This document shows positions 1 through 56,000 of a DNA stretch of 64,000 nucleotides, one piece after another. Position 1 is the first letter of the stretch. Each line of letters begins with the position of its first letter. Under the pieces are notes generated by a model. That model was not told the DNA's origin, did not search any database, and saw only the letters and a program-made list of their open reading frames with translations. This DNA is from Hydractinia symbiolongicarpus (taxonomy: Eukaryota; Cnidaria; Hydrozoa; Anthoathecata; Hydractiniidae). The stretch lies in the NCBI RefSeq assembly GCF_029227915.1, contig NC_079880.1, positions 23,188,501 through 23,252,500 of the forward strand, given 5' to 3'. The position numbers were made by a program, and so were the translations under genes.

Positions 1-1181
1 TAAATACAAGAAGTCAATAAGTATCATATCCCTCGCGCCATGAACAGCTGTAAATCAATTTTTAAGTTTTGTGAAATGACCCCGTATATTTAAAATGTAT
101 TGGTGCAGTGATAATGTGTTTTATTAATTTCAATGACAACTGATAGAAATGACCGTTATCGTGACACGTGACTGTACACTTAAGTTTGCATACAAAGAAC
201 ACATCACATTTTTCTCAAGAACAATAATAATACGTTAAGTGCCCGCTTTGTTGAAAAAAAAAGAAATTTTTGTTGTTACGGAAATATATTCTAAATATCC
301 TAAATTTTCTGACGTCTAAAACTCGTTTCCTAGGTACATATGTAAGATTTTTTTGTTCTTTTCTTCGCCGCTAAGCGAGGAAGCAGCTTATTGAAATTTT
401 TGTTGCGTATTTGTAGGAGCGCTTGTTAGTTCGTGATTATTACAATGCGGTATGTTCTTTGCTCCCGCAAAAAAAAAAAGATCAACTGCTTTTGTTGCAA
501 CAACAGTTTTGATCCCAATTATTCTAAACAAAGTATTACAAACGCGCCTCAAAAAAGTTGTTGAAACGTGAACAGTTTGGTTCATGGCACAAAGTTTAAG
601 CTGGAATTAGATTGATTCTTCATATGTGTACCGTGAACATTTCTTAAAGAGAACAGAAACACGACTTATATAACAAATTTTCTTTGCTTGCCCAATAACG
701 CGAATATTAATACCCAAAAATGCCAATTTTCATTATGATTTATCCAATTTTCTTGAACGGCTGTTTGCAAAAAAAATTGTACTAGTTTTCGCGAAGGAAA
801 GAAAAGCATATCCACTAGTACACCTTTAAAGGTCCTTTGATAATGACGACAGCCTTCAAATTTCTAATTTGCGGGAACTAGATTTCACATTCTTTTTTAC
901 CAATTAACAGAATTTTTTCATTCGCATTAAAGTATATCATTTCACAAATTTAGCCATTTTTTAAAGAAAAGGTTCTGAAAAAAATCGAAAAAATGTTTCA
1001 GATTCCCACTTTGTGTTTTGTAAACTGACAAAATTGAATGTACACCTCATTAGTTTAGTTGCAATACAACGAGAAGAATTGTAGCTAATAAATCTACAAA
1101 ACTTCAACGCTAATATTCCTAAACAACTTAATTAACTCTGGGAGTTCACACATAAAGAAACATGCCAATTTTACAAAAATA
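1..1181. other. Intergenic, no gene seen
   Basis: AT-rich sequence with no coding frame I can support. The longest open stretch (388-585, minus) has no recognisable composition or motif and no splice context. This is the downstream flank of the minus-strand gene that ends at 1255. Confidence 0.5.
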
Positions 1182-1187
1182 TTTATT
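1182..1187 (-). terminator. Poly(A) signal of the secreted-protein gene
   Basis: The plus strand reads tttatt, so the minus strand carries AATAAA about 70 bases past the TAG stop at 1255-1257. The spacing fits a short 3' UTR. The hexamer alone is weak in AT-rich DNA; its position is the main support. Confidence 0.5.
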
Positions 1188-1254
1188 CATTTACAGCTAA
1201 AAAATATCAAGAGAAACAGTACACCAGAAAATGGTGATCACAAGAAATTTGTTA

Positions 1255-4200
1255 CTATTTATCATATTCGTCTGGTAGTACTGATTTTGGACCTCCCATA
1301 CGATGTTGAGGTTTGCTTTCTGCCATTGGCAACAGATTTGGTCGCATTTGTTTAGATGTTTTTAGTTTCTCAAATTTATTTTGCTTTTGAATTTTCTTCA
1401 TAGTTTTTGTTTTTTGTTTCATAATTTTTACGCTTGTTGTTTTACCAACTTTCTTTGGTTTGTCCGCTATGGCAGGTTTGTTCATTTTTTCGTTCAATTT
1501 ATTTTGCTTGGTTTTAACTGGTTGTTTAATGTTTGCAAAACCTGGCGGTGAAGAAGCAGGTCCCACAGCAACTGAGGACTGATGGTTTTGATTCATAGGT
1601 TGCTGTTGACTCGGCTGGGAAGCAGCACTTCCTTGTCCTGGATACTTTCCAATACTACCTGCATCTGGATATCCAGGTATCTGTGCTGGAACGTTGGAAG
1701 GATACCCCGGAAGTGGCATACCTTTAGGGGGTGGCTGACCAGCCCATCCGCCACCACCTCCCCATCCATAACTAGTTTTACCGTATCCATACCCACTACC
1801 AGAACCGTATCCGTAGTTTGGGCCAGGTTTTTTTTCATGATGTCTCGCTGTAGCACCAGTTTGGGCTTTGGTGTTTGCTTTATTGCCGTTTTGTACAGCT
1901 GCATTGGTGTTGCTACTTGCACTAGAAGATGAAGAAGACGACGCTTTAGCTTGTGACTTTGATTTACTGGAAGAATAAACTCCTCTGACTACTGGTGGCA
2001 ACATTTGATTGTAAGCTATACTTGGACCTGTTGGAATGCGCGGCTTTATAAGTGACATTACACTGTTTTGTTTAATCGGAACCTGTTTGATTTTGTTTAA
2101 GTTTTGCTGAGGATATATATTACGCAAGACTTTTGGGTTGTAACGCTGTGGATTGATTCTGAGACCTTTCAAATTATCAGCTGTTGTATGAATTTTACCT
2201 CGTAGATTTCCCTTCTCGGGAGTTATTCTATCCTGATTGGACATTTGGAATGACAGTAATGCACCTGGATTAACGCCAGCTGGCCATACATCAGGTTCTG
2301 TAGATATTTGTGGTGATTGTGCATTGACAAAAGGTGCTCTAGAAATATCTGCCGATAATGGTGCATGTTGATTTACACCTGCTGGCATATCATCAAACTG
2401 GTCATTATTTCCTAGCTGAGTTTTAAATGAAGCAGCATTTGCGTTACTTACTTCAGGAGCTTTGGCTATCTTCTCACCAAATACAGTTTTCTCTTTTGGG
2501 TCTGGATGTGGAGGAGCTTGGGCTTTATCATATAATGGTTTTGTGGTAATAGATGGTTCTTCACTGGTAAGTTCAGCAGGTTGCTGGTTACTCATTATTT
2601 TTACCGCAGCGGTGGCATCAATATTGGATAAATCCTCTAAAGATTCATTTGGTTTCTCCTTTTGATCCTTTGCATCACTAAGTACATTTTGCTGATGGTT
2701 TGTCGCAGCTTCAATTAACTCTGGATTAGGAGGAGATTGTAAAGAACTAGCTTGAATTTGTTGTTTTCCATTTTCATCTTGTGAAGGTACATCAACGGGA
2801 ACTTGAAACTGTACTGGTTCATTCAACATTTTTATTGCATTTCTGTTCTTATTTAAAATGTACTGCGCAGCTTTGATCCGATTGATATCAGCTTGTTTTA
2901 AAGGCAACTTGACATTAGGATCTGCAAGAAGAAAAGTTTTTGGTTTTATTGGTTTCGCAAATAACGGTTTTGGTTTCTCCTGAGGAATTGAAGCTTCCTC
3001 TGCAAGTGTCTCCGACGGTTTAGCAACTAATGGTTCCGGTTTTCCTTGAGTGACCGTAAGTTCTTCTGCAGATGGCTCCAACTGAGATGTGCTCTGTACA
3101 TTTTGCACTGCTTCGTGTGTTAGTGCAGCTGGCTTTTGAAAATGGTGTGCCTTTTGCTCGCCTTCTGGTGCTGGATCAGCAGTGATTGTAATTTGATCAT
3201 TTTCAGGATTTTTTCTTGCGGATACTAATTTTTCGTTTTGATTATCAACAACATCAGGAACATCATCGTCAGCATTCAATTTTAATTTTTGCGTGAGTTT
3301 TACAAGCTCTGGAACATGTGGACTTTCTTGTGGAGGAATAGCCTCTAATGGAGATGCGTTTCTATTGTCATTAAATCTCACTAAGTTATTATTTTCATCC
3401 TCATCTGGTTGGTTTTTTGCTAAATTTTGCGCAGCGTAGTGAAATTCGTTAAAGTTTGGACTAGGATACACTACATTTAAATGATGTTTTTGTTGAGCTT
3501 TTCCTTTGCTTAACTTTTGCTCCTCATATTCGTCTTCCTGGTTTTCTTTATTTTTTCTTGAATTTTGCGCTTGTGCTTTTAGTTTTTCTTTCATTTGAGA
3601 TTTTATTAACATAGCTTGTTTCTCTAAATTTTCCTTTTCTGTTTCAGTGACCTCTTCTTTGTTGCTTTCTTGCGCTGCAGCATTTTCTTCACCCTGTTCT
3701 TGTCTATTCATACCTTGGTTTGCTTTTTGTTCGTCAGCTTGAACTAACTTGCCCAATTTACTTTGAATATTTTTGGCAAGGTGTTGCTTAAATGATGCCA
3801 GATAAGCAGGTTGTAGTTCAATCTTTCCTTCTTGGTCAGGCTGAGAAGAAGCAAAGCCTGCAGGGTTTTCAACTTCATTTTCAGGAATTTTTCTTGTAGG
3901 CTGCTGCTGCATTACATGTGGCTGGACTTCACTGGTTCCTTGATTCTTTGAAATACTTTGTTGAGATTTCGTCTCTGCCTCTTTTGCTTTAGCCTCTTTA
4001 TCATCAAAATTTACTGAATTTAATTTAGTTTGCACAACTAGTGCTTTTACGTGTGGTCGAAAAGTTGATGCTGGCTCGTTACCTAAAAACAAAACGCCAC
4101 CATCTTTCACGCTAGATTGATCCTTTTTAAGTTCTGGCTTTTCCTTTTCAATAAAACCTTGATCCTGTGCATGCTTTTGTTGCTCACGTGCTTTAGCGTC

Positions 4201-7005
4201 TTCAAGCTGTGCAGGAGAATACAGTTTTAAAAATTTCTCTTGAAAGCTATTTGCGTACGATTTTTCGTCTTCTAGATTTTCTTGTGAGTGTGGTACTGGT
4301 TTTGGAACATTAAGAAGAACTTCGGAGGCATTTTTTAGCTTTTTTATTTCCTTCATTTTGTTATTAAGAGCCTGCATGTAGTTAGTCAAAGCAATTTTCT
4401 GGGACTGCTTCTCAGCAGATTCAGTTTGAAGTTTATCATTTGCCTTATTTTTAGGACTATCTATGATTTTTAATGGTTTTTTGTCAAATGTTTCTTTCAT
4501 TTTTACATCTGAGGATTCTACCTCAGCAGATGATTTCGAGGGTTGTTGAGACTCTGCAGGTGCCTGTAGTTGCTCGATGTTTGCTTGTGGTTGCTCTTTA
4601 TTTTGCTGCAGACGTGTTTCTTTTTTCGGGGGTTCTACATTCTGTTGTTCCTTGAATTGCTTAAACTCTTTTTCCTTTTCCTGTGGTAGTGGTGACTGTT
4701 GTTGTTCCTCGGGCGACTGTTCTACAGCATGGGGCGCTTCTTGCTCCTTCTCTTCACTATAATGCGGTCTTGGTGTTTCGTGAGGACTATCATTCTGAGC
4801 TTGTTCGTGTTTTTCACTTTCGGTATTGGATGCAGCAACGATAACATCATTTTCGGTCTTTGGTGCTTCGATATGTTTTTCATTCTCAATCCTAGGTTCA
4901 AATTGTTTGTCTCTTTCTGTTGCTGTAGAGTCCACAATTTTAATATCAGGTGATGCGGGATCTATGTTTAAATTTTTAGGATTCTCGTGTGAGATTAACC
5001 TTGAAGATCGCATGGACATATAAGAAGGTACCTTTAGAATTTTGCTATTCTCGTTGGTGCCAGGAATTGCCTTTGGCACTGTTTCTTTCGTGCGAAATTT
5101 GCTTGAATCATCCGGAGTCTCAATTTCAGGATGGAGATTGTCTTCTGCAAACGACAATTCATCTGGTGCATCAAACGTTATTTGATCTTTGGGATTCACA
5201 AAACCGTACAACTTTCCGGATGCCTTTAACTTTTCCTCAGTTTCAGCTAGTTGTTCATTAATTTGCCACAAGTTAGATGGAGGAGGATACAAGGTCTTTT
5301 TAATGGGTCTGACGGCTTTCTTTGGTATAGTATCACGCACTGCACTTATAACCGATACGTGTCCATGGTGATGATGGTGATGATGACGATTAACTCTATC
5401 ACGATCTCTTTTGTTCACGATTATGATTGTCGGCTCGTCGATGTCGTCCTTTTTTAATGGTAGATGTTTTTTATGGTGTTTGTGTAAATGGCGTTTCGAT
5501 GCATTTTCCTGACTTAAAGTGACACGCTGAATGTCTTCAGAGTTTTTTGGTCGCGTCCTTTCAGGAGTATGAGGAATACGGCTTCTGGACGAACGATGTG
5601 GTTCATCTAAAATAAAATGAAATTGCAAAAAATGGAAAGATGTGAATAAGAAACGAGTTTTATTATTTACATCGTAGATACGCGTATTTTTTATAGGCAA
5701 CTAACTTTTTAAGCAACTGGACTAACATCTAGAAGATTTCTAAACAACTGCAGTATAAGTAATGTAGGAGATAAGCAACGGTTTTGGCAAGGCATTGCCG
5801 AGATTACATTGTTTTTGGCAATGTGTAGCTTCTCTTGATGCTCAATAGGATAACAGTTTATACTCTATATACTAAATTTATAGAACAGCATTCTTTCTCG
5901 ATTTTAAAGCGAATATATAATTACTTTGTGTATAGAATTTAGTGTGAGCACTTGTAGTTTTCGGCCATCTTAAACATAACCCTTTTTAAACAAAGCACTT
6001 TTATAAACTTAAACATTCCAGCAATCGTTAAGCAACTTTACTATCGATTTTGACGCATATTTTTAGTAGTAAGTCAAGTACTAGCGGTTTGTCAAACGCG
6101 AACTTGAGCAAATGTATTTTTTTAATGCCCAATTTGAAAAAGTTTCCGTTCGCGACAGTTTCTTTCAACAGTTGCTAAAATGTAAAGTAATAAGCTTGGT
6201 ATCATTTACGAAATCATTGCTGGCAAAAAAACAGAATAAGAAAGGCAAAGAAATGGCAACACTCTTTCTATAGCTACAAAACTTGGAGGTAACTTGTCTA
6301 TAATTTTATGTTACTTCTTTCTCTCCATTATTAGAATTCACAGCTTTACTGGCGGACAGCGGTTGAAGATTTGCTGCATTCATCGTAGTCAACACGACTA
6401 TTGGCAATACAGCTCTTACAGCTCAGAACGAGTGACATTAAACAACATTGAGCAAATGCATGATTTGACAAGCAACTTAATGGAATTGAGTTGTCGATAA
6501 AGTTTGTGCTGAGAAGAACGTTAAACAAACTTTTTTAAAAAACAAAACCGGCTAAAATCACTCGCACTAAGCGACAATTTGACAATTTTTCCCGCTATGA
6601 CTAAATACATGAAAAAGAAAAAATAGCTGCAGCAGAGGTAATGTCGTGCAATTTTGGACAACAGTAATTTCATTAAAATATCACAGATAACGGTACAGTT
6701 GCCTAAAAAGTGGAGAACGCGTACTAACACTACAAACAGAGCTCTTTTTACAAAAACTAACTGACAGCAGTTTCCTCGAACTGAAAAAGTTAGGTTGAGT
6801 AAATATTCATGAATATTAAATCGGTGTTAAATTATAAAAAAATTCTTTAAAACGTTTTTCTTTTACCTGTCACTAAAACGCTTCCAGATACTATCATATG
6901 CACTGGACTTCCATCTGCGTCATAAAATTCTGTCACTCCTTCTTGTAATGCGCAATTGATCAACGGAAGTACTAAAAAAGCCCAAAAGTACTTGACGTTC
7001 TTCAT
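1255..7005 (-). CDS. Large secreted, intrinsically disordered Q/E/K-rich protein
   Basis: Two exons: 7005-6867 (ATG, 46 codons plus one base) and 5606-1255 (stop TAG). The junction is GT-AG and phase 1 and joins in frame, giving 1496 residues; the 1260-base intron holds nothing recognisable. Residues 1-20 are a signal peptide (hydrophobic core FWAFLVLPLINCAL), so the product is probably secreted or extracellular. The rest is low complexity: a seven-His run near residues 121-127, a very long region rich in Gln, Glu, Lys, Asn and Pro, an internal repeat around KPxPLxAKP, two PAGVN motifs, a Ser-rich stretch, a Gly/Tyr/Trp-rich block near residues 1305-1340 and a strongly basic C-terminus. No catalytic domain is visible. 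A structural matrix or cuticle role is inference from composition only. An acceptor-like AG sits 9 bases before the ATG. Confidence 0.8.
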
Positions 7006-8503
7006 TATTATTACTATAATTTAAAGATACATTTGATAGCTTTGATTTTCTGGTTTCCCTTCTAGGTTTTAATGCTGAATACAGATTGTTTTAATTAAGC
7101 GGCATATGAGTGGACGCAATGATGCGTGAAACAACATTGTGATAAATCTCTGCTGGCAGCTACATGGTTAATAAATACATAAATGAAGGGCAACGGGAAT
7201 GTAGTAATTATAGTTGGAACATTATTGGAATCTTTAATTTTTTGGAGGATTCAAATAATTTTTATGCTTGTGTAAATAAGAATGACTTTAAATTAAATTT
7301 TAAAAAGGGCATGATTTTGTACTTTGAGTTTACCGATTTTAAATATGTGCATAATTTTAAAATTCTTTCTTACCTACCAATTAAAATTAAAGGTACTTGT
7401 CATTTGATAATTTGCTATTTGCTGCTCTCATGGTAAACTTGTAAAGCTTGTTGTTTGCTCTCGTAGTCGAAAAACGTAAACTTTAAATGTAAGCAATATT
7501 TGGTGATTTTTTGACACTGGTAGCCTAAATTGAAATCCACCCTACATTATCACATTTGAAAAGTTAACACCCCCCCCCACCCCCCGCAAATTTAACTCAT
7601 CTAACTGTTTCCAAAAACAACAACCAATTTTCATCACCAATTTTGGTTCAAGCATTGATTTCTACATTTTTAGTCCGCTTTATTCCATCTGTGTTAAATT
7701 AAACTTTTCTCACCAACGATTAAATCCACGTGAGCTTTAATCTACTTAAAGTTGACATTATAGGAAAATTTGAGAATGTGCAACAACATATGATTTTTTT
7801 GTTTATTTAGCGGTATATGGTAAGAAATAGAACCGTTATTTTAAGAAGAATTATAAAATAATTTCTAACTACATACAAAACTATTTTTTTATACTTTAAA
7901 TACATTTTATTTCATACAAATATTAAAAAAAGTATTGAACTTCTTCTTCTTTATATCCTACAGCTGAATTGTCACCTCATTTCAACAGTATGATTACGCT
8001 AAATGTTGTTAATGGATTTCTCAGAGAAGATTAACTTCTCTTTATCATAGGGAAGATTTGTGGATCAATCATAGAAGTACGACTCAATTAAGAAATGGGA
8101 ATAGTTTTAATACAGCTTTCCTGACTAAATTTTTCTGTGTTACGCCAATCTTTGTCTGTAATTAACAAAAGGTAACCCTTAAGTTTAGCGAATTCCGTTA
8201 AGATAAATTTTCGCGAATCAGTCATTTTTAGGTATTTCGAAATTTTTTTTTTTGAATGGACGATTTTACGATATTTTGAGAAGAAATGGATTAAGGAGAC
8301 TACTAGAGTACTATATTTCATCTTAACTTACACTCCGTCTGTCTTCACGACTCACAAGTGTAATTATAATTAAGCCAGTGTTTAATGTTAAAACACGTTA
8401 TCTGTAGATCTGTACGGAGAGTCATAATAAAAAATATATACACCACACACGTCAATCAAATTCGAGGACTAACAACGCAAATTCAAATTAAAAATTGCAA
8501 TTT
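7006..8503. other. Intergenic spacer between two minus-strand genes
   Basis: Spacer between the 3' end of the prenylcysteine oxidase gene and the 5' end of the secreted-protein gene. It contains a C-rich run at about 7569-7587. A minus-strand ATTAAA at 8381-8386 could be the oxidase poly(A) signal. Open frames at 7164-7436 and 8088-8321 look like chance AT-rich frames. Confidence 0.45.
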
Positions 8504-18994: not shown

Positions 18995-20200
18995 TATTGT
19001 TTATTTTATTTTATTTTTTTTTATTTTTTATTAAACAAATATTTATACTGGATATACATGTCAACTAAAAGCTGTTATAAATATGTGTCCAGTTAAAATA
19101 TATAAAAAGACATTAAAATATAAATATATATACATAATTAATAAAACCAAGTATGATAGACACACAAGAATCAAGGACTGGTCAAAATAAAGAAGTCGGG
19201 TGAAAAAGAGTTTAAAATAACCTAGGAAAAAAGATTGAAGGCAGAGACAAACTGGGAAACCAATTTAAAGACTGGCTAAAGACCTAAGTATTATTAATAA
19301 AAACTAATTGAAATGTTCATTTAAAAATGTTTTAAAATCAGACATGCCTAAAGAACGGGCCTCTAGAGGAAGCGTATTATAAATTTTTGCTCCCATGAAA
19401 TAAAAACTTTTTCTGGCATACTCCGTTTTAATTTTTGGAATAGTAATCAACTTTCTGTTATTTCTCGTGTTCATTTCATAATTTTGAGCGTGAAAATAGT
19501 TCTGAAAGTCATTTGTTGCAGTACCATCAAGACTCGTTTTGACAACCAAACACGCACGTTTTTTATTCTCATTTACTATTGATTTAAGCCGATTGTTCGG
19601 ATCACTATAATCTCTACAACTATACACAACACGCAAAGCTCTCCTGTGCAGGGAATCCATTTTGTTATGCTGAGTGCCAAGAGATGCAGCCCACAATAGG
19701 TGAACGTTGGCATCACCATACTTTGATAAATTGCCTTGGCGGTTGCAAGTTGGACTTCGTATCTGATTTTCGACAGAAGGTTTAAACGAGATGAGGCTTT
19801 CTTATAACATTTTTCAAAGAAAGTATTCATCGAGAGCGAACTTTCGATAAGGACACCAAGATACTTTTCGTTTGCTATCAGGACGTTCTGATGGTCAACT
19901 GTGATGTTAAAGTTGACCAGCTGATTTTTTACTTTCTTTGATGTTCCAAATAATAGAGCCTCAGTTTTTCCTTTCTTCAGATTAATTATAAGTTCGTTTT
20001 CTTTGCACCACAATGAAACGGCATCGAGATCTGCGTTCATTTTCGTAGTTATGTCTTCAACGTTTTTCGAATTGCAGTACAATACGGTGTCATCAGCATA
20101 TTTAATGAGCTTTGAATATTTAATGACATCACCAAGATCATTGAAAATCAGCAGAAACAATAGAGGGGTTACTCTAATAAACTTTATAAACTTTCAAGCA
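18995..20200 (-). pseudogene. 5'-truncated LINE: reverse transcriptase C-terminal part
   Basis: Reading on the minus strand from about 20200: PLLFLLIFNDL, then the catalytic YADDTVLY, a thumb region with LKKGKTEALLFG and NEKYLGVLIE, then after a frameshift near 19695 the conserved tail WAASLGTQHNKMDSLHRRALR and a stop at 19304. About 270 bases of 3' UTR and an A-rich tail (plus strand 18995-19032, T-rich) follow. These are features of Jockey/CR1/Rex-type non-LTR elements. Fingers, endonuclease and ORF1 are missing, so the copy is dead on arrival. It ends about 70 bases before the first cathepsin B start. Confidence 0.85.
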
Positions 20201-47612: not shown

Positions 47613-50049
47613 ACTCGTAAATGTGACGTATATATAACGGGCCCATATTGCCTAAATTCTGTTTCATTTTTGTTAACTTTGACCGTTGCAATGATATTTT
47701 TTATGTCATTTTGGGTATATATATATATATTGTATGCATATTTGTTGTTTGATAAGCTCCAAAGATCTGGTATACTTCTACACATATGTTTATATTTGTG
47801 TAACTAATTTTTAAGTTAAAGAGTGGAACTGATTGATTTTCTTAATCAAGAGTTGGTTATTTTTTGGTTTCTATTTCTATTTACAGTTGTTTTAATCCTT
47901 TATTAATTACAAGCTCGTGAGCTTGTATTAAAACGCAAATGTGTCCTACAAGAATGGAAATTTTTGCCTCTCTGAGCACCGACACGGGAGTAGTCGTGTG
48001 TTCGAATCTCATCTTGGTAACTATTTTTACTTTTTTATTTCTTTTTACTAACTCGTAACTAACTATGTCCGAAATAATCAATTGCAATTTTGATTTTTGT
48101 CACTTAACGTCATTTTAGGCCAAATTGGTCCAAAAATTAAAACTATTTTAGACAAAACTTGGCAAAGTTAACAAAAAAAGTAAGCCGAACATGGTGACAT
48201 TAAAATTTTGATTTTTTGTCACCTAAATGTCATTTAAGGCCAAAATTGGTTCGAAAATTAAAATACTTTATTTTCGACAAAATTTGGCACAGTTAACAAA
48301 AAAAGTATGCTGAATATGATAGTGACATCAAAGTTTTGATTTTTGTCACCTAAATGGAGTTTAAGCTCATAAACGTTTCAATCGCGCGACTTTCAACCAT
48401 GAATGATAGGCTGTATTTTTTGTTAGCAGAAATTGTAAAATTGGGTTGCATTGTGGATGTTTCATAGTTGTGCATTTTCAATAGCGAGCGCCTGCATATT
48501 GTTTATTTTTTAAAAAGATAAGATTAGTGTTCACAAGCTTTATTTAACTAACTGGTAAAGTAAAGGTGTTTCCACCAAAGTTTTCAAAAGTGAATATAGG
48601 CAGAATTAAGGTCTCCCCAAATGCCTGGGAAGTAGTCTGCGAAAAATAAAATTTCCACAACAATACGTAAGAGAAAAACGAAGACGCTACACCATATATA
48701 AATAATTACGAGAACGAAATGCTTTTTGTAGCGAAAAGAATTTCTCGTTTTCGCTTTCTTCTTTCTGTCAGTCAGTTTACCCCAGACTGACCCAACGAAA
48801 ATTGAAATTTCGAGGAATTTTCCGTTCAAGAAGATCTACAAATCAATTTTGAAAAATAACTGCGTAGTCCACAAGAAATGTTATTGCCCATCTGAATAGC
48901 AAAATATGTCGTGTCTAACTTCGTAACAGAAATCACAATTTAATAGACAGCTTTTTGTAAACTTTATTCGCGAGGTTGTTTACGTATATCATACGTCTTG
49001 TTTGTTTTAATTTACATATTTTCGATAATAACTAGCACTGTCACTATTCATTATTTAATCTAACCTTTTTTCGATAGAATAGATTGTGTTGTTTAAAACA
49101 TAAGTTAATTAACAAATCCAAATAGATCCATTAAAGTTTAGCTTCTTATGACTGCGTAGGTTAAGGAATACTAATGGAATGTTTTTGTTACTTAGGAACT
49201 AACATTACCTTTTTATGGTCATACTCACTTAAATTTCCATTTTAAGTATCACTATAACAAATAATCTTTTGGCTTCTTTAATACTTGCGTAATCTTAGAA
49301 AGTGGAGACCAACATCATGTTCCTTTATCGTACATACAACTTTGTTTAAAACAATATGGGAATAACAACAGTTAAACAGTATGTCTGCTCATGTGTGAGT
49401 AGACACCCAATTTATGTGGCTGAATATCTGCCTTGTATTTTCATTATCACCTAAACAATTTCATTTGGTTAATAGGTTTGATTTTAAGAACTGTGGATTA
49501 TACCAAGGTAATTAATAACAACACCATACTGCGTAAAAATCAATTAATTGCAAGAGACATATTTTTGTAGTGTTATTCTTTAGCCCCGTTACAATGCAGT
49601 CCTAATGTCACTTGACATACTCATGTTCTCGTCAGAATTTTTTATCACCGTATCACGTACTTGTATAGCTACTACGCAATTTTGAGCGTACAACAAGGAA
49701 TGAAAGACGCTAGTTTCAACAGTTTTTACTCTTATTTATTTATTTATTTATTTGTTATGTAAAACTAAACAATCTGTTTTTAAATGTGTAATTTTTCCAT
49801 TTCTACATTTTCATAATAGCCATTCTAAAGGGTTTAGTTGGCAGTGTAGAAAAGTACTCACATTGCAACTTGTGAAGATGGAGAGAAAAAAGCTCTATTA
49901 GCTACCACATCCTTTACCAACTTTCGTCTGACTCTCAGCTAGATAACAATCTAGCTGAGGGTTTTTTCTACAGAAATTGAGACATTTTTATTTTGTTATG
50001 TTTTACATTTAGTTATAGAAAAATGTGCTGTGCGTAAATTCTTACAAGA
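47613..50049. other. Intergenic between BTB copies E and F
   Basis: Contains the ~120-bp tandem repeat at 48088-48358 and, near 47996, GTTCGAATC, which resembles a tRNA-type B box but has no cloverleaf around it. About 49790-50049 resembles the flanks before copies D and G. Confidence 0.5.
48088..48358. repeat. ~120-bp tandem repeat, 2.2 copies
   Basis: TTTTGATTTTTGTCAC-like starts occur at 48088, 48206 and 48334, each followed by a TAAxGTCATTT-type stretch, GGCCAAA and AGTTAACAAAAAAAGTA. Units are 118 and 128 bases. Confidence 0.8.
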
Positions 50050-53000
50050 ATGGCGGTATGCATTAGAACAGAAGAAAAAGAGCATCAGTATGCACAACCA
50101 TGGGATGATTCGGATGTGATTTTAATTGTTGAAAACGACAAATTTCATGTGCATTCAAACATACTTGGTTTCGCTTCTTCAGTTTTTAAAACGATGCTGT
50201 CATCTGAGTTTAAAGAAGGAAAGGAAAAGGTGATTAATTTTCCAGGGAAAAGTAAAGTATCAGTTTTAATATTATTAAATCTGATTTATCCATTTGATTT
50301 TACAATAACAGGTGATATTTTGCACTTCTTTTTTTAACATAACAAATTTAATACATTATCTTATATATTAATTCCCTTGCGTGAGTAAAACTGTGAGTCC
50401 ACGACACGGAAATCACGGGTCACTTTCTTATGACGTGGCTGTACGCTAAAATTTAACTAAAAAGATTAGGGATGTACTTCATAGAAATCGCACATAAGCT
50501 GTAAATAAATAACCCGCTGCTAATAACGATATAAATATATATACCCTTATGCCAAAAAACTCTATGTTAGCATATATATATAGGTATCGCTACATATGAA
50601 ACGGTATTAGATATTCACAAAGCATACGGACTGTTAAATGAAGTTCCCAGCATAAAACGGAAGTTGTGTTTACGAAAAAGATGACTGTTCTTTTTGAGTA
50701 TTCTCTACTCTTTCATTCAAAATAAATCTTTAAAAAAACATTTGAAGAAGAGCATGGTTTTATAAATTAATCATAGCAAGGTTCTGTAAGGTTTTTTCAT
50801 GTTTTATTTTCAGTTTTGATTATATTATTGTTGCCAGACATGTTTTATAGCTAGCATCATAAAAAGCCAACCACCACCAACAATTAGCTAGCTAGCTAGG
50901 AATATATATATATATATATGTAGCCATGTTCTTTCAAGGCGATTAGAAGCTCACATTATACATAATAACAAATTCATTAACACGTCGGTTCAGAAGGGTT
51001 GTATGGAGAAAGTCCCAGGATGCTGGGAACACATGTCAATGGTTTGGTCTGCACTTAAAGAGGCCCGGGCCAACAAATCACACCTTGCAAATATATGGCT
51101 GGATATTGCAAATGCATATCCTTCAATTCCACACAAGCTTATATTTTTTGCACTGGAAAGGTATGGAGTCCCTCAGAGTTGGATATCATTCATTAAGTCA
51201 TACTACGTTGGTTTATATAGCAAATCGTTTTCTTTGTCTGCACCAAGCAACTGGCACAAGCATATGCGAGGTATTTTTGCAGGTTGCACTCTTTCCATCA
51301 TTTTGTTTCTTGCTGGTATAAACATTATTCTTGAATACACTATTGCCGCACCGGCCCCAAATTATATTACTTCTAAAAACGTGCCCCTTCCTTTAGTCAG
51401 AGCTTTTATGGATGATATCAACCTAATGTCATCCTCTGTCTGTGGAGCTCAAAGCCTCCTTTCCAGGTGCGTCACTGCTTTAAAATGGGCTGGCATGAGT
51501 TTTTGCCCTCGTAAGTCAAGGAGCATAATCCTTATAAAAGGTAGATCTGTAAACTCCACACCTTTTTCTGTGTCTCACATCTCGTCACAAACCGACTTCT
51601 CTTCATTCATCCCGTCAATCCATTCATCGCCAGTTCGTTTTCTCGGTCGCATTATTGATGGTACGATTTCAGATGCTAAAGCAATCGACGAGCTAGATAA
51701 TAAGCTAATAACCGGTCTTACAATCATAAACGGTTCGTGTTTCAAAGGGACCCAAAAACTATGGATTTTGCAAAACCTTCTAATTCCTCGAATCCAATGG
51801 CCAATTCTTATTTATGAAGTTCCAATATCTCGGGTTACAAGGCTGGAGCAGAAGATATCAACTTTCATTAGAAAATGGCTATCTCTGCACAATTCCACGT
51901 CAAATATTTGCCTATATAGCTCCTGCTCGCCTTGTCCAATGCCAATTAAGAGCTTGACGTCATTGCTTACATGCTCTAAAATAAGTGGTCATTTACTTTT
52001 ACGCGACTCCAAAGATCCTCTTGTGTCTAACAGTGCACCTACTTTGAAAGTTGGCATGTGGAAAGTGGACAACGCAGTAAGAACAGCAGAGGCAGAGGTG
52101 AAAATAAAGTCAGTCGTGGGAACTCCCCAGTATGGAAAAGCAGGCCCAGGGATCAACAAATCTTTCAAAATTCCGATTTCAAAACAGTGCTATGCGTATC
52201 GTAAATTAATATCGAACACAGCTAAAGATATCGATGAGGAAGGCAACATGGGTAGAGCATTGCAGTTGCAAGTGCAGGGTCAGTGGACGAGATGGGAAAA
52301 TTACACAAAAAACGATCTATCTTGGAAGTCCATTTTTGCCATGTCCCCACACTTGCTTTCCTTCTGTCTTGCTTCTACTTACGATGTTCTTCCCTCACCT
52401 AGCAATTTAAAGCGCTGGAACGTTTGTACTGAATCTGCTTGTGCCTTATGTTCCAAACAAGTATGTACAACAGCGCATGTTTTAGGCGCTTGCAAGGTTG
52501 CTCTATCACAAGGAAGGTTCACTTTCCGACACGATGCTGTGCTTCGCGGGCTCCTGTTAAGTCTACAGCGTTTTTCATCTGAAGTTGTCCCGGAAACGAA
52601 AAAGCACCTTAAAGTGTCATTTGTAAAAGCAGGTAGCTATTCCTCCGCTAAAAGATCAAAACCAACTGGTCTATTCCACCATGCTAGTGACTGGGTGATG
52701 TTAGCAGATCTGAATGAAGGATTTGTGTTTCCTGGCCATATTGCGATCACATCCCTCAGGCCAGACATTGTAATATACTCAAATTGTTCTAAGCGCATCA
52801 TCATTATTGAACTTACTTGTCCTTGTGAGGAAAACATGGGATCCTGGCATTCCACCAAGCTTTCCAAATACTTCCCTTTGGTCGAGGTAATACGTAGCAA
52901 CGGGTGGTTTCCGCATCTTTTTGCAGTAGAAGTGGGTGCTAGGGGCTACTCTTCAAGGTCTCTAACTTGCTGTCTAAAAAGCCTCGGTTTCGCTAGCAAA

Positions 53001-56000
53001 TCTGCGTTTTTAACCGCCCGCAAGCTTGGCGATATAAGCATGAAAGCATCCTTTTGCATTTGGATTGCACGAGACTCACCACATTGGTCACAAGATCTTA
53101 CGCACTGCAGTCCGCCAACATTGTCACGACCAAAGGATAGTATACCTCATGAAAAATCCTCGTCTGTTACCAAATCCATTAAAAGTCCATCTTCAGCCAT
53201 CTCTGACATGCCAAACCCACGGAACACCATAACCTTAGCCAGGAACTTAAACAAAAGGTGAGCATCGTTCACGCTGGTTTGATAAACAAGGGGAACACAT
53301 GCTACGCAAACTCCATTTTGCAAGCATTAACGGTTCTTCCAAGACTTTGGTCTCAATTACCATCAGAGTCCTCTTTGTCATCTCCTCTAGTAAAGTCTAT
53401 AGTCCTAAATATGTCACTACTGAATCGTTCTCGTTCACCAATTGATCCTTCCAATTTCTTACGAGCACTGCAAAACAGAATGCATGCTCTTAACAATAAC
53501 GCGTTTTATCACAATCACCAACAAGATGTGCCCGAGATCCTTCAAGTTGTTTTTGACGAAATTATTGGATCTTCCCCTTTGGTTGACAATCTACTGTCTG
53601 TAACGGTGACCACAACAACGTCATGCAACTCCTGTTGTTTCTCCACTTCCAGAGAGCAAAAGGATTCAATTTTAATTTTACCAACGTGTAAGTCAATAGC
53701 AGACTCTTTTAACAAATTTTTACAACCTCAAGAACTTCTAGGTGACAACAAGTGGTTCTGCCCCCAGTGTTCATCGCATCAAGAGGCCACAATTGAAACT
53801 CAGATTTCTAATTGCGGCGACTTCCTTGTTGTACAATTGTTAAGATACACATCAGTAAATGGGTCTTCTTTTAAAGACAACAAGTTAGTCAATTGCTTGC
53901 CTAAAAAACATCATGTCTTAAAGGTAGCATCTCACCCAACTGACGATGTGTCTTTCAACAACAAGTATAACTTGGTTGCTACCATTAACCACTCAGGTAC
54001 ATTAAAAGCAGGTCATTACTGGGCCTTCATTAAGGACCAACAAAACACCTGGTTCAAATGCAACGATCGCTGTATTTCTCAAGTAGACACATTCCACTTG
54101 AATAATTCTTCGTCATACATACTTTTCTTTTCCAGAAGTTAGCTTATTTGTATGTCACACAACAAATGGGGGAGGGAATCCATGACCCTAGCGGTTTTAT
54201 TTACCCCAGCTGATTTATGTTGGTCAGTGCACCGTGAAAACGGAGTTTGCTCACTTCTCTCTTTTTATAGAGACAATGTAAGAAGCACAGCAAGGGGGCT
54301 TGATATCATATCTTGTCTTTGGGTTTAACGATCCCACTTATTACCCCAGTCCAGTAGGGAGGCAGAGTTTGCTCACTTTGCTTTCAGGATTGACAATCCT
54401 GCTGCCCTTAGTCATTTTAGAAGAAGCTTTGCAAGGGGGTTACATTTTCTTATCTGGTCTTCGTGGTGTTACGCCCACGCATATAACCCCAGTTATGACA
54501 GGCTGGTACTGTCATTAGGCAGGTCCACAGCAACAATTATCTGTGTAAGGCTGAGTGTTGGAGCTCCATAACACATGTGGAAAGCTACAGCCAGGGTCAC
54601 AAGTCCTGGCGCGCAGATAGTTGTTTGCTTCTTAAACACATTCTCTAAAGAATAATTTTAAATTTATCCGTTTAAGGATATTCACGTTATGATAAGTTTT
54701 ATTTATCTCATTTGTACCTATTCAATTCATTTTGAATTGCTTTAATATTTATTTTTTAGTGTTGTGTTCTGTCGCTGTTGTATTTTTCTGCCTTTTACGG
54801 TCAATGTTTTTAGGAAATCCTTGCAAAAAGGGGGATTTTGCTTTTTTGAAAAATCTCTAGAGGGTTGCAACCTCTAACTATAGTAGAACCAGCTGTCATT
54901 AGACAAGAAATATCATTACAGCTAGCTGTTTTGTCACCTCATCATCAATCATTAAGTGACTAGCTATTAGCTACTGTAGCTAGCTAATGCTAGCTTTAAA
55001 CTAAAGATTCCCAGTATATATATTCCCACAAAACCCATCAAACGTTATTAACCCTGAAGACTTTAAACATTTTCCTGTTTTTTTTTGGTTTGCGAAGTTC
55101 TTTTCCTCCAAATATTCTGAAAATAAAGTTCAGAAATTACTTATTTTTAAAATGTAAATATAATTTGTTTCAAATTGTGGTTTTGACATTTTCATGTAAG
55201 AATTTGTGGGCAAAAACCTTAATTAGCATGCTAAAAGAACTGACTTTTCTTAATTTAGAATTACTAAACACAACCATTTTCTTACATTTAGTGTAAACTT
55301 TTGTGCGTATGGCTTATATTTAATACACCAAAAGAGCTACTTTGTTGATTTCAATTTTATACTCTTTGTAAGCTATTTTTTTCTTCTTTTTGACATTTTG
55401 AATTAACTTATTGTTGTAGAAGGCATATAATATACATGCATATAAAAAAATGGAATTTTGCAAATTTCTGTTTTACCACTCAATTTTTACATTTTATAAG
55501 TTATTTGGAACAGAATGGTATGAAATAGACCAAAATACCTGATCTTAGTTGTTTTTATTTTACAGGCTGTGTCTGTGAAACTTTAAGGGGAACATTTGGT
55601 GTGACATATACTGATAGAACTGATTTTTGTTGTGTTAGATGTTATATCTGAACCTTTTTGACATTTTATGTTAATTTTGCGTAAGGACCATATATATATA
55701 CACAGAAGAAGAATTCAATTTTACACCTTGCAAGCTTTGTTTTTCTATATTTTGTATAAATTCTTACTGGGGAGGACTCGGTGCAATATATCGAAATGAC
55801 TGATCCTTCTCGATTTAAATTTGATGTGTTCTAAATCGTATATAGTTTTGGAAATTTTGTGTAAGATTTAATGGGTAGATGCAATATGTCAAAAAAACTT
55901 TTTTTGTTGAATCAGAAGCACTCCCTACAACCATTCTTTTTTTTACAGTTTGTGAAGCTTTTGTGAGGAAAGAGTGTATGCAATATTATCGAAATAACTG

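Follow-up and report, generated by a model that had tools for sequence, protein, structure and literature searches.

A C-terminal ubiquitin-specific protease domain joined to the reverse transcriptase and endonuclease of an R2-like LINE in Hydractinia symbiolongicarpus

The window analysed here, a 64,000-nucleotide stretch of the Hydractinia symbiolongicarpus genome (contig NC_079880.1, positions 23,188,501 to 23,252,500; G000:C6:23188501-23252500 within the 480.9-Mb assembly), contains a 5′-truncated copy of a long interspersed nuclear element (LINE) whose less damaged relatives encode a ubiquitin-specific protease (USP) in the same protein as a reverse transcriptase (RT) and a restriction-like endonuclease (RLE). 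The polyprotein of the element is approximately 1,410–1,420 amino acids long and is ordered as an N-terminal region, RT, CCHC zinc knuckle, RLE and USP. Judged by its sequence, the element is an R2-like, RLE-bearing LINE. We regard it as almost certain that the element has the anatomy described below and that the USP belongs to it.

Unbroken copies of the fusion are present elsewhere in the genome. Twenty genome regions were fetched for the comparison of copies. In the window's own family (family A), the locus L021 carries RT, RLE and USP in a single frame of 1,422 codons, while six loci of another family (family B; L027–L032) each carry all three in a single frame of 1,426 codons. These unbroken fusions sit on several chromosomes. 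Family B copies are 99.3–99.8% identical to L029 across long matches, and Pfam places RVT_1 at residues 334–604, zf-RVT at 823–887 (below its cut-off), and UCH at 1132–1418 of the L029 frame. When the USP frame of the window was searched against the genome, 131 matches were listed, and the first 12 rows are element copies that are 97–100% identical to it. The initial annotation had allowed that a host USP gene might match this frame more closely than other copies of the element do; the closest genome matches are the element copies.

The window copy lies on the + strand at 50917..54953, as delimited by a multiple alignment of ends, and is 97.8–99.3% identical to other copies across ~4 kb. Its 5′ part is gone, with the 5′ junction falling between 50917 and 50937 by similarity to other copies and end alignment, and similarity to the other copies stops at ~54,953, which makes the extent of 51003..54142 in the initial annotation too small. 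Two open frames in different registers overlap in this copy, an RT-RLE frame at 50,892–53,261 and a USP frame open at 53,207–54,142. The frames were first described as following each other without a gap, which has to be corrected, while the order of RT, CCHC and PD-(D/E)XK followed by a USP with intact Cys, His and Asp boxes holds. The RT domain (PF00078, RVT_1, E=5.9e-13) occupies 50973..51650, with its F-M-D-D motif at 51405–51416. Between it and the endonuclease is the CCHC zinc knuckle (52440..52493), and the RLE of the PD-(D/E)XK type (52671..53066) has its Pro-Asp at 52761–52766, Glu at 52809–52811, and Lys at 52857–52859. The RT catalytic Asp pair, the four zinc-knuckle ligands, and the RLE residues P, D, E, and K are each present in 32 of 32 aligned proteins. 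A poorly conserved linker (53067..53272) leads to the USP domain (PF00443, peptidase C19) at 53273..54130, which is supported by Pfam, an AlphaFold2 model, Foldseek and residue counts. The 3′ untranslated region (3′UTR) and 3′ end follow at 54143..54953 (~810 bases), and comparison of ends between copies shows that the element ends in ...GTCACCTCATCATCA. A single-base difference in a short run of A within the linker, near 53,212, puts the RT-RLE and USP frames of the window into different registers; it is found in none of the five other copies aligned with the window copy. A programmed frameshift between RLE and USP was considered and is ruled out for the window's family by these five copies without a frame change and by longer copies that are in frame.

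The USP frame of the window matches the Pfam UCH profile from position 1 to position 254 of 254 (E=1.5e-34), in agreement with the USP assignment of the initial annotation. Searches against PDB sequences with phmmer return USP15, USP36, USP21, and USP8, and do so also with a profile of relatives. The AlphaFold2 model (predicted local distance difference test, pLDDT, 87.3; predicted template modelling score, pTM, 0.85) is, by its structure, a USP fold with zinc-binding fingers, and its top Foldseek matches are USP35, USP36, and USP2 (E 3e-26 to 1.5e-25, template modelling (TM) score ~0.8, 23–24% identity). Cys32, His270, and Asp287 of the frame are intact (codons at 53300–53302, 54014–54016, and 54065–54067, + strand), and the four zinc Cys codons, also on the + strand, are at 53624, 53633, 53759, and 53768. 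The domain therefore resembles cellular USPs (USP2, USP8, USP15, USP21, USP35, USP36) in its fold, Cys-His-Asp residues and four zinc Cys, but differs from them in being only 18–24% identical to solved USP structures (378 matches at E<=0.001 in the fold search) and in being joined to RT-RLE. The active site was compared among 109 near-complete element USPs, comprising the window frame, 53 from the search with the USP frame, and 55 from the search with RLE-USP. All 109 retain the His, 107 the catalytic Cys, and 103 the Asp (with Asn in a further 4), the four zinc Cys are present in 106–107, and 4 of the 109 fail one catalytic test. The USP domain is very likely to be an active deubiquitinase.

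The linkage of the USP to the element can be followed from both sides of the domain. A search of the genome with the 3′UTR (54,143–54,660) listed at least 41 matches at 40 places; 8 matches that start inside the UTR were set aside, and 32 reach its first base. A USP is found upstream of 29 of these 32 complete 3′UTR copies by listed matches, and of 31 after a hidden Markov model (HMM) search of the rest, in which L055 and L057, two of the three copies without a listed USP, were positive. The initial annotation had proposed such a collection of copies by their 3′UTR as a means of seeing whether all carry the USP, and all except one do. From the other side, 59 of 86 RT-RLE matches in the genome extend to the end of the endonuclease, and for 41 of the 59 a USP match is listed no more than 1.5 kb downstream. 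Among the 18 others, 14 regions were examined by HMM, one of which (L053) stands for an array of five whose four further copies are outside the 14, and a USP was found in 12. Since the USP recurs in better-preserved copies and in many distantly related proteins, it appears to be a permanent component of the element that did not come to lie beside it by chance.

Several known systems share part of this architecture. R2 and other RLE-encoding non-LTR (long terminal repeat) retrotransposons have RT, CCHC, and PD-(D/E)XK in one open reading frame (ORF) and supply the best PDB matches in both sequence and fold. By sequence these are 9nl2, 9nl3, and 9dou at E ~1e-19 and 8gh6 at 1e-7, and in the fold comparison model residues 1–723 align to R2 chains through the C-terminal part of those chains. 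Unlike R2, the Hydractinia element has a C-terminal USP of ~290 residues. Its copies have the structure expected of target-primed reverse transcription (TPRT), with a common 3′ end and 5′ truncation at differing positions. The 3′ flanks differ among the copies compared (seven family A ends plus that of the window, and ten family B loci), and one L027 family B 3′ end runs into another copy. Because the flanks differ, there is no single 28S-like site, and this separates the element from the R2 clade in the strict sense, which is tied to a single site in 28S ribosomal DNA.

NeSL and one Utopia family of Trichinella are likewise LINEs of the RLE type that have gained a cysteine protease (PMC4640811, available part). 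Theirs, however, is an N-terminal Ulp1-like enzyme (SUMO/Ub-like family, clan CE), whereas that of the Hydractinia element is a USP (peptidase C19) at the C-terminus; Pfam found no Ulp1 in the L021 and L029 ORFs and placed UCH at their C-terminus. Mobile-element enzymes are also joined to ubiquitin or ubiquitin-like hydrolases in Ginger1 transposases, which bear OTU or Ulp1, in some Helitrons, which bear OTU, and in a Trichomonas protein with transposase_11 and Peptidase C19, which sets a precedent for C19 among DNA transposons (PMC2836005, available part). These are DNA transposons with one protein named for C19, whereas a large clade of LINEs is concerned here. No LINE-encoded USP was found in the open-access literature, a search that left most subscription journals and apparently Repbase Reports outside. 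The word ubiquitin does not occur in the available portions of PMC13188248, on R2 in animals, and PMC6338049, on accessory domains, or in that of the main text of the article describing the Hydractinia genome (PMC11067881). A comparison with NCBIfam gave no family.

Relatives of the element protein are numerous in public protein sets. The USP frame as query found 310 proteins, and among the 120 listed 42 also match the RT-RLE frame, in a search whose length limit excludes full fusions. An RLE-USP query found 79 proteins (62 with RT-RLE and USP, 15 with RT-RLE only, and 2 with USP only), where the share of USP-bearing matches is inflated by the USP in the query. With RT-RLE alone as query (residues 340–1080), 186 proteins were found; a USP is present in 62 of the best 69 matches and in 83 of the 120 listed, the other 37 being without one. 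In the pooled RT-RLE relatives the USP occurs in 88 of 136 and is C-terminal in 88 of 88, following an RLE-USP linker of median 54 residues (22–444). The number without a USP is an upper count, as some of these proteins end early or show a Cys box by eye (P0183, P0229). The USP-bearing relatives with an organism label are from Hydractinia or, in the case of P0149 and P0210, from Pseudomonadales metagenome bins; the latter two RT-USP proteins are probably eukaryotic contamination of the bins. Pfam labels C2H2 zinc fingers in the relatives P0242 (N-terminal), P0245, and P0248, and none in the L021 and L029 ORFs.

A quick maximum-likelihood tree of RT-RLE was built from 95 rows, comprising 93 of the 136 relatives and two from the genome of the window, after 14 doubtful rows had been dropped. 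The USP is present in 54 of 54 rows of one clade, in 15 of 33 rows of its sister, and in 0 of 8 rows of the outgroup, which includes the fish sequence P0187. This distribution needs at least four changes; one gain and three losses fits, as do other mixes. In a tree of the USPs, with five non-element USPs (two partial, none of them a host Hydractinia USP) as a yardstick, the large clade, with 50 USPs that could be tested, falls on one side of a branch with an SH-like approximate likelihood ratio test (SH-aLRT) value of 86, which supports a single origin of the USP for that clade. Median pairwise identity among 29 proteins is 0.58 for the RT, 0.59 for the CCHC, 0.47 for the RLE, 0.42 for the N-terminal region, 0.36 for the USP, and 0.118 for the linker. 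The USP thus evolves faster than the RT and RLE and far slower than the linker, with its active site fixed, and the median end branch is 0.43 in the USP tree versus 0.2 in the RT-RLE tree.

Our best explanation is that the USP was acquired by an ancestor of a large LINE clade and would since have been retained in working order, apart from losses in one sub-branch. Through its covalent link to an RT/endonuclease that would stay bound to its own RNA, the USP would act where the ribonucleoprotein (RNP) is. There it may clear the protein or RNP of the element of ubiquitin between translation and integration, and so spare it proteasomal disposal. Taken as a whole, an R2-like LINE polyprotein with a retained, working USP acting at its own RNP seems to us rather probable. 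That protection of the RNP is the main role of the USP is a more tentative proposal; it would be the simplest role, closely rivalled by one in which the USP works on chromatin or repair proteins at the nick and one in which it counters the defences of the host.

A number of observations weigh against this explanation. The window copy is itself unable to encode the fusion. Among the other copies, L056 has the 3′UTR and no USP even by HMM, the USP of L043 begins with its Cys box and then breaks off, and L046 has no USP by HMM between the RLE end and UTR-like sequence. The USP is missing from 18 of the 33 sister-clade rows and so is not required by every relative. The sister-clade USPs (13 rows) do not form one group in the USP tree, where the fungal USP P0199 falls weakly among them, and because of this scatter a single origin is not established for the sister clade. 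The ratio of nonsynonymous to synonymous substitution rates (dN/dS), which the initial annotation had suggested comparing across copies, was reported for pairs with dS between 0.02 and 2 and gave one informative family pair only. The window USP against the L039 family has a dN/dS of 0.10 (233 codons), a value in favour of the explanation but at a dS of ~1.7 that is near saturation, and the values of 0.10–0.11 for six further family A copies against L039 are not independent of it. The other 17 pairs give 0.32–1.06, as decaying copies would; the decayed copy L051, which has 9 stops, is at 0.88–0.95 against family B, and the remaining pairs, of recent copies of the same family, lie between 0.32 and 1.06. 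The USP is also the least conserved enzyme domain, and the constraint on it may in part be weak.

It is possible, if somewhat unlikely, that the USP instead works at the target site on proteins of chromatin or repair, such as ubiquitinated H2A/H2B, PCNA, or FANCD2, clearing ubiquitin around the nick and aiding TPRT or second-strand synthesis. Such a role would suit the position of the USP after the endonuclease, which is presumably the part that holds the target DNA in R2-like proteins. SAGA Ubp8 on a ubiquitinated nucleosome is among the 378 fold matches, as is USP1 bound to FANCD2, both at low rank, but USPs fold alike, so that fold rank is uninformative on substrate. The RLE-USP linker, being long (median 54 residues) and unconserved (identity 0.118), offers no fixed geometry. 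A repair-related role for the OTU and Ulp1 domains of transposons is proposed by Bao et al. (PMC2836005, available part). We consider it unlikely that an R2-like branch acquired a deubiquitinase once and that the RT-endonuclease delivers it to the nick, resetting chromatin or repair ubiquitin so that TPRT completes. If this were true, the insertion of a LINE would be accompanied by ubiquitin control exerted by the element itself, and fragments of its USP already bear the names of host genes.

An action in trans, in which the USP blunts host defence by deubiquitinating innate-immunity or silencing factors, would agree with a domain that evolves faster than the RT and RLE around a fixed active site; faster evolution fits relaxed constraint equally well, however, and we hold this role to be quite unlikely. 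USPs need a ubiquitin moiety for recognition, and no ubiquitin-like domain was found above its Pfam cut-off; because no ubiquitin-like part is seen, it is very unlikely that the USP serves to process the polyprotein in which it is encoded, even though other LINEs (NeSL and Utopia of Trichinella) carry a protease domain (PMC4640811, available part). The one candidate for an encoded ubiquitin-like moiety, an APG12 match (E=0.0046), is below its cut-off and lies in a stretch modelled as helices, and was rejected. A host USP gene lying behind, or co-mobilised with, a dead LINE at the window locus could account for the frames being out of register and for the host USP names that NCBI gives to some proteins, but has practically no chance of being correct, and chance neighbourhood or host gene capture is ruled out, by the unbroken fusions on several chromosomes, the USP in 31 of 32 3′UTR copies, and the relatives in other genomes.

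It has long been noted that LINEs (Ulp1 in NeSL and Utopia) and DNA transposons (OTU, Ulp1) carry accessory proteases, with no job known for them (PMC4640811 and PMC2836005, available parts). The USP-bearing clade and its USP-less sister lineages offer a natural comparison, with and without the enzyme, for the part of ubiquitin in retrotransposition. Annotators should also be warned that pieces of the element carry Hydractinia USP gene names in NCBI: P0003, P0033, P0036, P0089, and P0120 are labelled as USP50, USP51-like, USP2-like, and USP27-like. P0003 and P0036 additionally match the RT-RLE frame.

The 5′ ends of family B have a regular arrangement. Complete 5′ ends, taken as matches from base 1 at >=94%, number 11, and all 11 abut the exact 3′ end (...CTTTTTCATC) of another, 5′-truncated copy; none among them is a free full-length 5′ end. 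The junctions are on the + strand at L027 2400 and 7767, L029 1445, L031 1591, L032 1689, and L040 4707, and on the minus strand in L028, L030, L034, L058, and L059. The upstream partner is cut at varying length, from 111 to 2,452 bases where measured, while the junction is identical between cases and has no variable extra bases. Two of the five 5′ ends of a diverged tandem array were checked and both abut a 3′ end, and the same holds for L026, the single 5′ end of family A that was examined. End-to-end template jumping is known for R2. The dimers of a truncated and a full copy could have arisen from multimeric transcripts, end-to-end template jumping or a circular template, and repeats like those of LTR elements or Penelope-like elements (PLEs) were considered as a further source. 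An Rfam search of the family B 5′ end, confined to L029 1300–1900, found no hepatitis delta virus (HDV)-like or other known ribozyme near its gathering score.

Other arrangements of copies were also observed. Head-to-tail arrays occur at G000:C13:23678939-23700977, with five copies at a spacing of 5,296/5,305 bases, and at G000:C14:1996252-2007930, with three USP matches at a spacing of 5,514/5,529 bases. In L040, adjoining family B copies at 1110–4131 and 4657–7172 are in opposite orientation.

Elsewhere in the window, a BTB/POZ frame (Pfam, E=1.1e-11) at 50038–50334 on the + strand lies directly 5′ of the element and is likely a host exon. A YADD-type reverse-transcriptase-like frame at 19576–20193 on the minus strand, judged by eye only, is probably a fragment of another LINE. 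The minus strand also has a frame of 1,481 codons at 1255–5700 that is rich in Gln, Glu, Pro, and Lys.

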